Of a DNA stretch of 64,000 bases, positions 2,363 through 54,422 are shown piece after piece (positions within the stretch are counted from its first letter, which is position 1; every line of letters starts with the position of its first letter). The notes under the pieces were generated by a model. The model did not search any database. It was not told where the DNA came from and worked only from the letters and a program-made list of their open reading frames with translations. The DNA comes from Desulfatirhabdium butyrativorans DSM 18734 (lineage in GTDB: Bacteria; Desulfobacterota; Desulfobacteria; Desulfobacterales; Desulfatirhabdiaceae), in contig NZ_KE386985.1 of assembly GCF_000429925.1 (NCBI RefSeq), forward strand, positions 347,739 to 411,738, read 5' to 3'. The position numbers and the translations under genes are program-made.

Positions 2363-2684
2363 GAATGAGGACCGAAAGGGTGGTTGATAAGAAAGACGGT
2401 TTTCCAAACCGATTTGGCGAATGTTGTTGGATTTTCTTTATCATAACCGGGGATGCAGGAGCAAGGTCAACGGGGCAGAATTACAGGAAAGCGCCTTTTT
2501 GGGCAGCCGATATTCATACGAGGCTGCTTCAGACTGGTTTCCGCTGCATCGCAACACGACCTGCCCTCCGGTACGGGGCGGGCAAAAAACGGGATTTTGC
2601 AGGAATCGCCCATGCAACCGGGGCGGCACCCCGGTTAATGAAAGTCGCAGGAGCAAGATAGAAAAAATGGGAGCCATCCGCTTT

Positions 2685-2761
<77 letters not shown>

Positions 2762-2765
2762 TATT

Positions 2766-2822
2766 CGACTTTCGTAGGAATCCCCCATGCAGCCGGGGCT
2801 GCGCCCCGTTGGATGAAAGTCG
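2766..2822. repeat. 57 bp dispersed hairpin element with 8 bp terminal inverted repeats
   Basis: The element starts CGACTTTC and ends GAAAGTCG, which are reverse complements. Its centre CCGGGGC-TGC-GCCCCG is a second nested hairpin. Related copies, full or decayed, are at about 2599-2649, 21733-21772, 25365-25396, 25508-25550 and, in reverse orientation, inside murD (about 43150-43190). No coding capacity was seen; it resembles REP/MITE-like DNA. Confidence 0.85.
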
Positions 2823-3150
2823 ATGGAGCAAATTCCTTAGGAGTATGGCGACATGACAGTCGCCTTACGGTTCTGCCGACTGCCCACTTTCGGAGGAATG
2901 GCGCATCATGACGCAGAAAGACTTTTGCATTTGGCCCATATGTGATAAGGCAGGTACGATACGATTTTGCCGGTAATGGTTGATTTTTTCCATGTGGTTT
3001 TGAGGCGGCATTCCGCTGAAGCAAATCGTTTTTTTCGATGACGTTGTGCGGAGGAAAGCTGGCCACTAAATGGTCGTAATGCCGCCGCCTCCGGGGATGA
3101 AAATCCGGTCGTCATTCCGGCGAAAACTGGGGGACGAGCTTGGGGGATTT

Positions 3151-3257
3151 CGATTACGATTACGACAACGACAACGATAGCGATAACGACAACGATAACG
3201 ACAACGATAACGACAACGATAACGACAACGAATATGGATACGAATACGACAACGATT
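3151..3257. repeat. GACAAC/GATAAC hexanucleotide array
   Basis: About 18 hexamers of the type GAYWRC (GACAAC, GATAAC, GATTAC, GATAGC) run in series. In one frame they read Asp-Asn/Asp-Tyr repeats, and on the other strand mostly valine codons. Sister arrays are at 21595-21691 and 25611-25710. The sequence just after this array (about 3257-3293) is also shared with the one after the 21.6 kb array, so the array moved or was copied with its flank. It ends ~57 bp before the start codon of the TPP-enzyme gene. Confidence 0.95.
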
Positions 3258-3313
3258 ATCCCCAGCGTTGCGAGGAGAGGTATTTTCAAGAGAAAACGAT
3301 AGGAGAAAACCGG

Positions 3314-6536: not shown

Positions 6537-6564
6537 GTAGGGGCGACCGGCCGGTCGCCCCTAC
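6537..6564. repeat. Perfect 28 bp palindrome, GTAGGGGCGACCGG arms
   Basis: The arm GTAGGGGCGACCGG is followed directly by its exact reverse complement. Related palindromes are at 13703-13730 (12 bp arms, GGCG centre) and 25481-25509 (arm GTAGGGGCGGGTTT, one-base centre). The outer GTAGGGGCG...CGCCCCTAC is constant and the inner bases differ but stay self-complementary, showing selection for, or copying of, the fold. Confidence 0.95.
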
Positions 6565-13452: not shown

Positions 13453-13594
13453 CGCTTGGACGGAAATTCCTCATTCGGAGCGGCAAGCCGCTTGAGGGCA
13501 GGCTGTTTGACGACGTGAAATGGGTGATGCCGTCAAGCATCAAAATCGGAGTCAACCGTCCATATCCTGACTCCTGATTTCTGACTCCTATTTA

Positions 13595-13677
13595 GTGTCT
13601 GGACGGAAAACCCGTTTTGGGTACAACCTGCCCGCAGACGACGCGCTGCTCCGAATAGGGGTTTTCCGTTCAGACAT
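13595..13677. repeat. ~83 bp inverted-repeat element, copy 1
   Basis: The left end TGTCTGGACGGAAAACCC and right end GGGTTTTCCGTTCAGACA are near-perfect reverse complements. The interior contains ACAACCTGCCCGCAG and CTGCTCCGAATAGG. It is almost identical to the copy at 30966-31048, in the same orientation. No open reading frame is inside and no transposase is nearby. Confidence 0.92.
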
Positions 13678-13702
13678 TACATCAGTGGCCAGTGGGTAGC
13701 CT

Positions 13703-13730
13703 GTAGGGGCGACCGGCGGGTCGCCCCTAC
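13703..13730. repeat. 28 bp palindrome, GTAGGGGCGACC arms
   Basis: The arm GTAGGGGCGACC, centre GGCG and reverse-complement arm form a strong hairpin. It is the same family as 6537-6564, and in both places it is preceded by a short GGCAGT-like heptamer remnant and CTGTAG, so the two repeats travel together. Confidence 0.93.
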
Positions 13731-21594: not shown

Positions 21595-21691
<97 letters not shown>

Positions 21692-21820
21692 CATCCCCAA
21701 GGTTGGAGAGAGAAGTATTTTCATGATTTTCCCCCATGCAGCCGGGGCTGAACCCCGGTTAATGAAAATCGATGGAGCAACTTCCTTAGGAGTGTGGCGA
21801 CATGACCGCCGCCCTACCAC

Positions 21821-21927
21821 ACTGCCCACTGCCCACTGCTGACTGCCCACTGCTGACTGCCCACTGCTGACTGCCCACTGCTGACTGCCCACTGCTGACT
21901 GCCCACTGCCGACTGCCCACTGCTGAC
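21821..21927. repeat. Heptanucleotide array, TGCCCAC/TGCTGAC (14 bp higher-order unit)
   Basis: Seven-base units alternate between ACTGCCC and ACTGCTG, giving a 14 bp period repeated about seven times. Read on the other strand it is the GGGCAGT/CAGCAGT type seen in short form at 6514-6535, 25334-25360, 54126-54151 and inside murD (43088-43121). Confidence 0.95.
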
Positions 21928-22259
21928 TTTCTTAGGAAAAGTTGACAATCTCCTTCTTGGAGTAGTAGAGTGCGTGCAATCGGGGCATGAAGCCTCTTTG
22001 GAATACCGGTGGTTTTGTGGCGGAGTCGTGCTCGAATCTCTCGGATCAAGTGCGATGGTCTCCCAAAAAGTCGCGGAAGATCCCATTTCGCCTTGATTAC
22101 GGCTTTTTGTGAAATCATCAAGCTGTTACCGGAGCGGACGCCAGCCTGAGAACCCCCAGGAATTTCCTGCATCGGAACGATGCCTTGCGACACCATTTAT
22201 CTATCGGTTGCCCATGGAGGGCATCATTCCATTCTTTTTTCGATGAAAGGAGAACGACG

Positions 22260-25336: not shown

Positions 25337-25480
25337 TGGGCAGTGGGCGGTCGGCAGTGGGGCCCGTTACTCCGTTGGATGAAAGTCGCGGGAGCGGAAA
25401 TCCATAGGAATAGGCTTCATCCTTCTTCTGATCCCTGACCCCTAACCCCTGACCCCTGACTTCCGTAGGAATCGCTCATG

Positions 25481-25509
25481 TAGGGGCGGGTTTTAAACCC
25501 GCCCCTACA
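25481..25509. repeat. 29 bp palindrome, GTAGGGGCGGGTTT arms
   Basis: Fourteen-base arms are separated by a single T. It is the same outer sequence as the palindromes at 6.5 and 13.7 kb but with a compensated change of the inner stem from GACC to GGTTT, so pairing is preserved. Confidence 0.93.
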
Positions 25510-25610
25510 TCCCGGTTGATGAAATGCGCCATGGCGACTTTCGTAGGAATGGGAACGGCGCCTCCGCCGGGGGCATTGGGGAAAATGGCCCGGGAAGGAT
25601 TCAACGGGTG

Positions 25611-25710
<100 letters not shown>

Positions 25711-30906: not shown

Positions 30907-30965
30907 GTTGATTGGCAACGATAAGCGTTCGCTGGCTGTGATACCAACGAACATCATGCTATTTT

Positions 30966-31048
30966 GTGTCTGAACGGAAAACCCGTTTTGGGTACAACCT
31001 GCCCGCAGGCGACGCGCTGCTCCGAATAGGGGTTTTCCGTTCAGACAC
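30966..31048. repeat. ~83 bp inverted-repeat element, copy 2
   Basis: The ends GTGTCTGAACGGAAAACCC and GGGTTTTCCGTTCAGACAC are exact reverse complements over 19 bases. The interior is nearly identical to copy 1 at 13595-13677 and in the same orientation. This is the best-preserved copy. Confidence 0.95.
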
Positions 31049-31169
31049 TATTTTGGATTCAGCGAACGGCTTCAGCCGATCATTGATTCAATTTGTAGAT
31101 CATCGGGCGAGCCGCTGTCAAGCACCATTTGGGATTTGGGGTGTAACGCCTTTCCCATAGGTCGGAGGT

Positions 31170-34015: not shown

Positions 34016-34383
34016 GTCTGATTGCATTTGAAACGAACGGAGCCGCCGCAAATTGGGTGCGGCCTGGTCGATAACCCCCGCATTCTTTCCCTTCTGAACA
34101 GTGCCTGAACGAAAACCCCGATTTTGTGTGACCCGAGCCTGCCCGCAGGCGGCTCATTCCTCCGAATAGGGGGGGCGCTCAGGCACTGTTTTGATTCTTC
34201 GTGCCCTTCATCTGTCACGCCTCGACCCGTTTCATCCATCCTGATGTTTTTCTCTCCGTTCAACTTCTGGAAGCCTTGAGAAAGAAGTTTTCCACATTTT
34301 GTTTTGTTCAAATAATTTCTGTTGACTTCCATCGAAAAATGGGTTTGTATCCATCCAAAGTGGAATAAAGTGGATGGAAATGG
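34016..34383. other. Gap before the dcw cluster
   Basis: Contains an inverted-repeat element (34098-34190) shortly after bamD, where it could end or stabilise the bamD transcript, and the mraZ promoter and operator at the right end. No gene was seen. Confidence 0.75.
34098..34190. repeat. Inverted-repeat element, copy 3 (diverged)
   Basis: The outer ends AACAGTGCCTGAACG and CGCTCAGGCACTGTT are reverse complements with one mismatch. The interior keeps GCCTGCCCGCAGGC and TCCGAATAGG. About 40% of positions outside the ends differ from copies 1 and 2, yet the ends still pair, so changes in the arms are compensated. Confidence 0.85.
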
Positions 34384-42135: not shown

Positions 42136-42267
42136 GTGGTGCCTGAACGGAAAACCCTGTTTGGGTTACAACCTGAGCCGGAGGGCAGACTGTTTCACGC
42201 TGTATCGCAAAATTGCCTGCCAACAGGCGGCGCGTTGCTCCAAATAGCGGTTTTTCGTCCAGCCACT
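42136..42267. repeat. Inverted-repeat element, copy 4, with ~45 bp insertion
   Basis: Left GTGGTGCCTGAACGGAAAAC and right GTTTTTCGTCCAGCCAC are imperfect reverse complements. The interior has the family words ACAACCTG and GGCGCGTTGCTCCAAATAGC, plus an extra AGGGCAGACTGTTTCACG-type segment also found in the decayed copy at 13.46-13.51 kb. It fills the whole mraY-murD gap inside the otherwise overlapping dcw cluster. Confidence 0.85.
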
Positions 42268-42281
42268 ACATGAAGGATGAC

Positions 42282-43790
42282 ATGGATTCTCCAGTTGATT
42301 TTCCAATTCACGGCCGGCATTTTGTCGTGGTGGGTCTTGGGCTGAGCGGGGTTGCCGTATGCCGGTTCCTGCTGGATAAAGGCGCGAGGCTCTATGCGAC
42401 GGATTTGTCCGCTGCGGATGGCATCCGCCAGGCGGCTCGGGAACTCCAGGCGCTGGGGGCGGAGATCGAACTGGGCAGCCATTCGGAGGCAAAATTTTGC
42501 TCGGCCGATGTCATCGTCCTCAGCCCGGGCGTTCCGCATGACCTCGCTCCGATCGAAGCGGCCCGCACGCGGGGCGTGCCCGTCATGGGCGAGATCGAAC
42601 TGGCAGCCCGGTTCGCGAATGCCCCGATTCTCGCCATTACCGGGACCAACGGCAAGACGACCGTCACGACGCTGATCGGCAACATGCTGCGCCGGTCCGG
42701 CAAGACGGTGTTTGTCGGGGGCAATATCGGTGATCCGCTGATCGGTTTTGTGAGTCGAAACGAAACGGCCGATTGGCTGGTTCTCGAAGTCAGCAGCTTC
42801 CAGCTCGATACCATCGGGAGCTTCCGGCCCCATATCGCCGTGCTGCTCAACATTACCGAAGACCATCTGGACCGGTATTCGGGCATGAGCGACTATGCCC
42901 GATCCAAGTTCCGGATTTTCGAAAATCAACGGCCGGACGACTGGGCCATCCTCAATGGGCAGGACCGCTACATTCGGGAGCTTGCCGGTACGATCCCGTC
43001 CCGCCGGTTGTGGTTCAACGTGGCGATAGCGGAAGGGGCATGCGTTTGCGAGGAGGGGATTTCCTGGATACTGCCTGATATTCCTACGGCAGTGGGCGGT
43101 GGGCAGTCGGCAGTCGGCAGTACCATCCCGGCCACTACCCTTCTTCGGGATGCAGCCTCGACTGCATGGGGGATTCCTGCGGAAGGGATGCGGCGGCAAA
43201 CTCGCCAGAAATCCGACGATCGGATGTTCCAAATTCCGGAAAAGGACATTCTGTTACCGGGGAGGCACAACCGCGAAAATGTCGCAGCCGCGATGATGGC
43301 CAGCCTGATTGCCGGGGCGACCGCGGAGGCTGTCCGGGAGGAAATCCGCTCTTTTCCCGGTCTGGGGCATCGGATCACGACGGTCGGGTGTGTGGACGGG
43401 GTCTGTTTCGTCGATGATTCCAAGGCGACCAATGTGGATGCCGTCATCCGGGCGCTCTCCTGTTTTTCGAAAAATGTCGTGCTGATTCTCGGCGGCAGGG
43501 ACAAGATGAGCCCGTTTCACCAGTTGCGGGATGCCGTTTCCGCTCATGTGCGTCTTGCCATAGTCCTGGGCGAGTCGGCACCGGCGATTGTGGAAGCCAT
43601 TGGCGATCTGGTTCCGGCCATTCGGGTTTCCAGCATGGAAGAGGCGGTAACGAAAGGGTTTCAAAACGCCAGATCCGGGGATGTGGTGTTGCTGTCTCCG
43701 GCTTGCTCCAGTTTCGACATGTTTACCAGTTATGCCCACAGGGGGCAGGTCTTTGCCGATGCTGTCAGGAGGCTTGCACATGATCGATGA
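42282..43790 (+). CDS. murD: UDP-MurNAc-L-alanine:D-glutamate ligase MurD with in-frame repeat insertion
   Basis: 502 residues. The N-terminal Rossmann start is VVVGLGLSGVAVCRF, the ATP loop TGTNGKTT lies at about 120-127, then ITEDHLDRY, LPGRHNRENVAAA, DDSKATNVDA and LSPACSSFDMF at the C-terminus, all MurD. It is about 40-45 residues longer than usual. The surplus (about residues 268-308, bases 43083-43200) is translated from intergenic-type repeats: four GGCAGT/GGCGGT heptamers, then a reverse copy of the hairpin element. The insert sits just before the LPGRHN motif, in a surface loop region, and keeps the frame open, so the enzyme may still work. ATG 42282 has GAAGGA upstream; ATG 42270 is the alternative. 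Confidence 0.92.
   Translation: MDSPVDFPIHGRHFVVVGLGLSGVAVCRFLLDKGARLYATDLSAADGIRQAARELQALGAEIELGSHSEAKFCSADVIVLSPGVPHDLAPIEAARTRGVPVMGEIELAARFANAPILAITGTNGKTTVTTLIGNMLRRSGKTVFVGGNIGDPLIGFVSRNETADWLVLEVSSFQLDTIGSFRPHIAVLLNITEDHLDRYSGMSDYARSKFRIFENQRPDDWAILNGQDRYIRELAGTIPSRRLWFNVAIAEGACVCEEGISWILPDIPTAVGGGQSAVGSTIPATTLLRDAASTAWGIPAEGMRRQTRQKSDDRMFQIPEKDILLPGRHNRENVAAAMMASLIAGATAEAVREEIRSFPGLGHRITTVGCVDGVCFVDDSKATNVDAVIRALSCFSKNVVLILGGRDKMSPFHQLRDAVSAHVRLAIVLGESAPAIVEAIGDLVPAIRVSSMEEAVTKGFQNARSGDVVLLSPACSSFDMFTSYAHRGQVFADAVRRLAHDR
43083..43200 (+). repeat. Dispersed repeat inserted in frame within murD
   Basis: GTGGGCGGTGGGCAGTCGGC and further CGGCAGT units (43088-43121) match the heptamer strings at 25334-25360 and 54126-54151. 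GGATGCAGCCTCGACTGCAT and GGGGGATTCCTGCGGAAG (about 43150-43190) match the reverse complement of the hairpin element at 2766-2822. Together they replace nothing recognisable in MurD and add roughly 40 codons. Confidence 0.85.
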
Positions 43791-54113: not shown

Positions 54114-54422
54114 GCGGCGCCTGCGGGCAGCGGGCGGTCGGCAGTCGGCAGTGTTCCGTCACCTCGGCGAAATCCAGCCTTTGGCATCAGGGGGCCATCA
54201 TCTGTTGAGAAAACCGGGTTCCTTCCGCCAAAGCCGGAATGTCGCTGGGGCGAGTTTAGAAGAAATAGGATCCATCCGCTTTTCTTCTGACTTCTGACTC
54301 CTGACTTCCGCCGGAATCACCCGATTGGCTCGGGGCAGCGGTTGCCTGCCCGCAGGCGCCGTGCTGCTCCAAATAGAGGATTTTTGTTCAGGCGCCAAGG
54401 TGAGAGAGAAGGAGAGACAAAC
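54114..54422. other. Repeat-filled gap before the moaB/mogA gene
   Basis: Holds GGCGGT/CGGCAGT heptamers (54126-54151), TGACTTC heptamer remnants (about 54285-54308) with their usual lead-in, and the right half of an inverted-repeat element (54341-54396). A strong ribosome-binding site (AAGGAG) for the next gene follows at the end. No gene is supported. Confidence 0.75.
54341..54396. repeat. Inverted-repeat element, right half only (copy 5)
   Basis: GCCTGCCCGCAGGCGCC, then GCTGCTCCAAATAGAGG, then TTTTTGTTCAGGCGCC matches the right portion of copies 1-4. The left arm is missing, so this copy is truncated. Confidence 0.75.

Follow-up and report, generated by a model that had tools for sequence, protein, structure and literature searches.

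The murD gene of Desulfatirhabdium butyrativorans DSM 18734 very probably contains, in frame, a copy of a dispersed repeat that is specific to this lineage and is tolerated as a nearly neutral, disordered passenger loop of the encoded protein. The gene occupies positions 42282-43790 (plus strand) of the window, that is, of the whole stretch of 64,000 nt that was analysed. The copy is documented by its homology to repeats elsewhere in the genome, its boundaries, its reading frame, its absence from MurD of relatives, its predicted disorder and a second case, in cbiG.

The repeat copy within murD

murD codes for 502 amino acids and its reading frame is unbroken across the insert. It is a single-copy gene, the sole full-length match in the 4.48-Mb genome. 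Its product matches the curated MurD model TIGR01087 with 409.9 bits (cut-off 211.95), in two separate stretches, and displays the MurD fold in the predicted structure; both identify it as MurD.

The sequence-only reading placed the same heptamers and hairpin element that otherwise lie between genes at 43083-43200. The repeat is indeed present, at other coordinates: profile and genome-wide model matches delimit a type-I composite element at 43077-43185 (plus strand; residues about 266-301). This segment aligns end to end with the composite, which consists of a GGGCAGT-type heptamer array and a CATGGGSGATTCCT hairpin module. The array, about five units of GGCAGT(G/C)G type at 43087-43121 (plus strand), groups with intergenic arrays (repeat family D12) and was detected by Tandem Repeats Finder at 43088-43121 with period 7. 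The hairpin module, ending in CTGCATGGGGGATTCCTGCGGAAG, lies at about 43130-43185 (plus strand). It is recognised by its identity to an intergenic copy (85% over 40 nt between 43146-43185 and the reverse strand of 2769-2808) and by a hairpin-model match at contig C66:390860-390923 (E=2.7e-7 genome-wide). The intergenic composites 2903-2769 and 21953-21730, both on the minus strand, have array and hairpin in this same order and relative orientation.

Homology was assessed with models from which murD had been excluded. The window profile, built from 14 other type-I copies, finds 43077-43184 at 50.2 bits (E=9.8e-15), whereas none of 500 codon-shuffled murD genes exceeds 7.4 bits. The genome-wide model, built from 13 copies and comprising 145 positions, retrieves the murD copy from 4.48 Mb at C66:390819-390922 (E=7.7e-10) and aligns with it over positions 2-144, so that its proposed relatedness to the intergenic copies is upheld by full alignment. 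Compared with the consensus, about 39 internal nucleotides are missing from the murD copy, a gap that removes the internal hairpin. Conservation of RNA structure in the insert found no support, folding of the murD copy being unremarkable (z -0.25; -1.58 for an intergenic copy and -1.56 for the cbiG copy).

The element is bounded by direct ATTCCTRCGG boxes (ATTCCTNCGG box type). The left box, ATTCCTACGG at 43080-43089 (plus strand, in the murD frame), precedes the right box, ATTCCTGCGG at 43173-43182 (plus strand), by 93 nt. The box-to-box unit of 93 nt equals 31 codons and leaves the open reading frame intact, as had been claimed. Read from the sequence, the net insert would most simply be these 31 codons; 96 or 105 nt are alternative lengths.

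It is very improbable that the order of events was reversed, that is, that the loop arose within murD by slippage in a GC-rich loop and merely resembles, or even seeded, the intergenic repeats. Slippage could expand the heptamer part alone, but the match runs through the whole model, with array and hairpin module in their proper order, and chance likeness is excluded by the codon shuffles. Nor is the murD copy a plausible source of the family, since it is one of about 150 copies, diverged and with an internal deletion. Equally slight is the probability that a repeat was wrongly placed in murD by sequencing or assembly. The assembly is a draft of 73 contigs and repeats are typical sites of error; however, the murD copy has diverged, shows private differences and has a deletion of its own, and on its 446-kb contig the nearest end is about 55 kb away. 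The repeat leaves the frame unbroken, and cbiG provides an independent second case.

Length and predicted structure of the MurD loop

Loop length was measured as the number of residues from DHLDRY to LPGRHN in an alignment with 59 MurD relatives. This spacing amounts to 132 in D. butyrativorans and to 73-107 in 58 of the 59 relatives. The seven other genomes of the family, all belonging to one repeat-poor sister genus, have shorter loops of 101-107 residues, and members of the order outside the family have 73-103. Subtraction of one box-to-box unit from the observed spacing (132 - 31) gives 101, within the family range. MurD is thus longer than normal, as the sequence-only reading held, by 31 codons in the simplest case (+25 to +31 residues when compared with the seven family members, about +40 when compared with typical relatives at order level) rather than by the 40-45 residues it proposed. 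Both the exact ends of the insert and the direction of change are deduced from comparison within the family, at an identity of about 50%. The insert had also been located directly before the LPGRHN motif; in fact it ends about 24 residues upstream of it. Repeat insert and repeat family occur together in this genome and are missing together in the relatives.

The one exception among the relatives, a Desulfobulbaceae MAG (PWOG01000120.1), carries in an unrelated MurD an even longer loop of 156 residues at the same place. This suggests that the same loop tolerates insertions in other lineages, too.

The structure of MurD was predicted with AlphaFold from an alignment of 31 MurDs. Mean pLDDT of the model is 88.2, with values mostly above 90 in the core. 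Residues 270-311, which make up most of the insert and extend slightly beyond it, have pLDDT below 50 and are situated between the strands 259-263 and 315-319. The core superposes on crystal structures of MurD with Z of 42.5 (8dp2) and 41.9 (4uag, Escherichia coli MurD; rmsd 2.0 over 425 residues), and the invariant columns of the alignment fall outside the insert. The MurD fold is therefore predicted to be intact and the inserted segment to be disordered, in line with the expectation that the protein should tolerate the repeat. We infer a functional MurD enzyme carrying a disordered passenger loop that probably has no function of its own.

The dispersed family and its copies in genes

The motif GCATGGGSGATTCCT occurs 67 times in the genome at up to one mismatch, its reversed control not at all, and its copies with their surroundings were used to define the composites. 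Two types exist, with the hairpin module common to both. Type I starts with box ATTCCTACGAAAGT, followed by GGGCAGT/CGGCAGT heptamers, an internal hairpin around GGCGGCTGTCATGTCGCC, then CGACTTTCATTNANCGGGGTGCAGCCCCGGCTGCATGGGSGATTCCTACGAAAG; after the internal hairpin come the CGGGGTGCAGCCCCGGCTGCATGGGSGATTCC hairpin module and a second box. In type II, the heptamers are replaced by TCAGAAG/TCAGGAG. Composite units chain via shared boxes. Unit length is divisible by three in eight of 14 type-I copies, and all eight are open in the murD frame; the type-I element thus often happens to be compatible with translation.

In the window, a full intergenic type-I composite is found at 2769-2903 (minus strand; 130.5 bits, E=1.9e-39). 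It is adjoined by a type-II composite at 2596-2713 (minus strand), which has TCAGAAG/TCAGGAG heptamers and the common hairpin module and scores 57.2 bits with the type-I profile. Another type-I composite between genes, whose heptamer array is long, lies at 21730-21941 (minus strand; 114.8 bits over 21853-21730, array matches up to 21941), and two diverged intergenic copies (36.5 and 20.7 bits) at 25368-25551 (minus strand). Hexamer arrays (ACGACA/CGATAA) adjoin the composite repeats at 3151-3260, 21597-21690 and 25609-25703.

Genome-wide, the murD-free model of 13 copies yields about 150 matches and the hairpin model 142. Elements are spread over the whole genome, about one per 25-30 kb, and are mostly intergenic. 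The 67 matches to GCATGGGSGATTCCT stand against 0-3 per genome in family relatives. A 22-mer core present 60 times here occurs at most once per genome, at two mismatches, across 290 other genomes of the order; one such two-mismatch match (locus L370) lies within a coding frame resembling mutS. These sequence counts support a lineage-specific family, dispersed in this lineage as had been supposed, whose core motif hardly occurs in the sister genus. The number of lineage-specific copies, about 150, implies mobility or copying of the element.

The earlier idea of an insertion hot spot at murD fails, because the element in the mraY-murD gap belongs to another family and elements are spread over the genome. 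This gap element (42139-42262), taken for a further copy of the same repeat ("copy 4"), gives no match to the type-I profile. It is one of a separate dispersed family of about 90 bp with inverted ends GTGYCTGAACGGAAAACCC ... GGGTTTTCCGTTCAGACAC, MITE-like in appearance, whose other members lie at 13588-13679, 30959-31050, 34101-34184 and 54345-54391.

Six matches to Y1_Tnp (Y1-type transposase) were found in the genome, one of them apparently intact (L194). The DNA read around these six loci contains no copies of the element, and no transposase encoded by the element or clearly associated with it was found.

The second case is cbiG (G000:C29:6378-7742, minus strand; locus L320), which harbours a full type-I element at C29:7381-7512. 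The insert, GQRAVGSRQSAVGDSVGRLSCRPIGAESRPGDFHSAGRSPGCMVDS, comprises 46 amino acids in frame and is absent from all 12 aligned relatives. By inferred secondary structure, it separates the first helix from the DIFLPEQL strand. murD and cbiG read the hairpin module in different frames, which argues against selection for one peptide.

Copies in genes were surveyed among about 190 merged copies in the DNA stretches around the matches, a few of which overlap. The survey covered long ORFs within these stretches, and the genic count is a lower bound. Twenty further long ORFs overlapping a copy were scanned against Pfam: 15 have no domain (one of these with a below-cut-off match), in four the copy precedes the conserved part, and cbiG alone carries it inside. 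On these long ORFs, the supposition of many more genic insertions was rejected. Nearly all other copies are intergenic or outside conserved parts, a scarcity expected if selection removes most genic insertions. As a separate observation, frames with RRAPTLRRAPTPRRAPT and RAVPQPCAVPQPRAVPQ peptide repeats occur near a DNA-methylase-like ORF (L199; G000:C12 near 76101), possibly another repeat read through in frame.

An element-derived loop might also have been kept for being useful to MurD (and CbiG), for instance in regulation or protein contact. In favour of such domestication, the murD copy has had time to diverge (50 bits, where good intergenic copies reach 115-130) and yet remains in frame within an essential gene. 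Against this, the loop is predicted to be disordered, the frames of the hairpin module differ between murD and cbiG, whose proteins are unrelated, and retention of frame in an essential gene requires no benefit from the loop. We consider domestication improbable.

The preferred explanation, a tolerated passenger, can be outlined as follows. A composite element would have entered murD, by transposition or conversion, at the loop that connects two beta strands of the central domain. This copy is open in the murD frame and is about 39 internal nucleotides short of the consensus. The resulting MurD would have gained a disordered passenger loop, about 31 residues long, while keeping its catalytic core unchanged. 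Most insertions into genes would be removed by selection, murD and cbiG being the only two conserved genes found with the element inside; the murD insert would be retained because it is nearly neutral at a permissive loop.

Comparison with known repeat systems

GTAG/CGTC REPs are short palindromic repeats, mostly intergenic and in several species also found inside some genes (PMC3733652). Our elements are likewise mostly intergenic and sometimes genic, and the ATTCC-GAAAG boxes look like stems of CGTC-type REPs. REPs are, however, single hairpins of 20-40 bp, in contrast to our composites, which contain a heptamer array and measure about 85-140 bp, and the consensus ends carry neither the GTAG nor the CGTC tag. 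GTAG REPs are associated with a RAYT transposase gene. The window also contains GTAG-type REPs (GTAGGGGCG...CGCCCCTAC), at 6537-6564 and 13703-13730, where GTAGGGGCGACCGG...CGCCCCTAC palindromes adjoin heptamers.

In Geobacter metallireducens, tandem heptanucleotide repeats occupy 49 intergenic and intragenic places; the heptamer of these 49 copies, GGGACCG (consensus GGACCGG), was interpreted as a regulatory element (PMC2700814). The heptamers described here, GGGCAGT/CGGCAGT, differ from it and do not belong to that class. By eye, the Geobacter class-3 heptamer MTYCTGA resembles our type-II CTGACTT/CTGACTC arrays (PMC2700814). In-frame insertion into conserved proteins is not described in the Geobacter text (PMC2700814). 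Intergenic TAACTGA arrays are known from Beggiatoaceae (PMC4679880).

Bacterial MITEs such as ERIC/RU-1, YPAL/RU-2 and Correia/NEMIS are non-autonomous elements measuring 100-170 bp; some contain open frames that are fused in frame to genes (PMC2229807). MITEs have terminal inverted repeats and target-site duplications, whereas the ends of our element are direct ATTCCTRCGG boxes.

In-frame repeats in conserved genes are a known phenomenon, mainly from Rickettsia. Rickettsia palindromic elements (RPEs; Ogata et al. 2000) reside in frame in 19 reading frames, in conserved protein genes (PMC2229807). They are dispersed, mostly intergenic repeats of about 100-150 bp, specific to Rickettsia and folding into one long stem-loop (PMC2229807). 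The element described here shares with RPEs its dispersal and its in-frame occurrence in conserved protein genes (murD, cbiG). Unlike RPEs, it forms no long stable stem-loop (z values of -0.25 in murD, -1.58 in the intergenic copy and -1.56 in cbiG), combines a heptamer array with separate hairpin modules and inhabits a 4.5-Mb genome; it is regarded as a family distinct from both RPEs and intragenic REPs.

No published account of the murD or cbiG case was found in the open-licence literature searched, and as far as this literature shows, the composite repeat family, its host lineage and the two genes are new. The insertions in both genes are delimited to a few residues and are lacking in sister lineages, so that tolerance and spread of a repeat in an essential enzyme, and its possible domestication, can be measured. 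They suggest that in-frame colonisation of conserved proteins by repeats is not confined to reduced intracellular genomes. More tentatively, the elements may represent an undescribed class of composite mobile repeats, chained via ATTCC-GAAAG boxes and still dispersing in one lineage of Desulfobacterales. Their units, often a multiple of three in length and open in at least one frame, might enter essential proteins as ready-made disordered linkers. Such a class would constitute an RPE-like, protein-compatible selfish element outside Rickettsiales.
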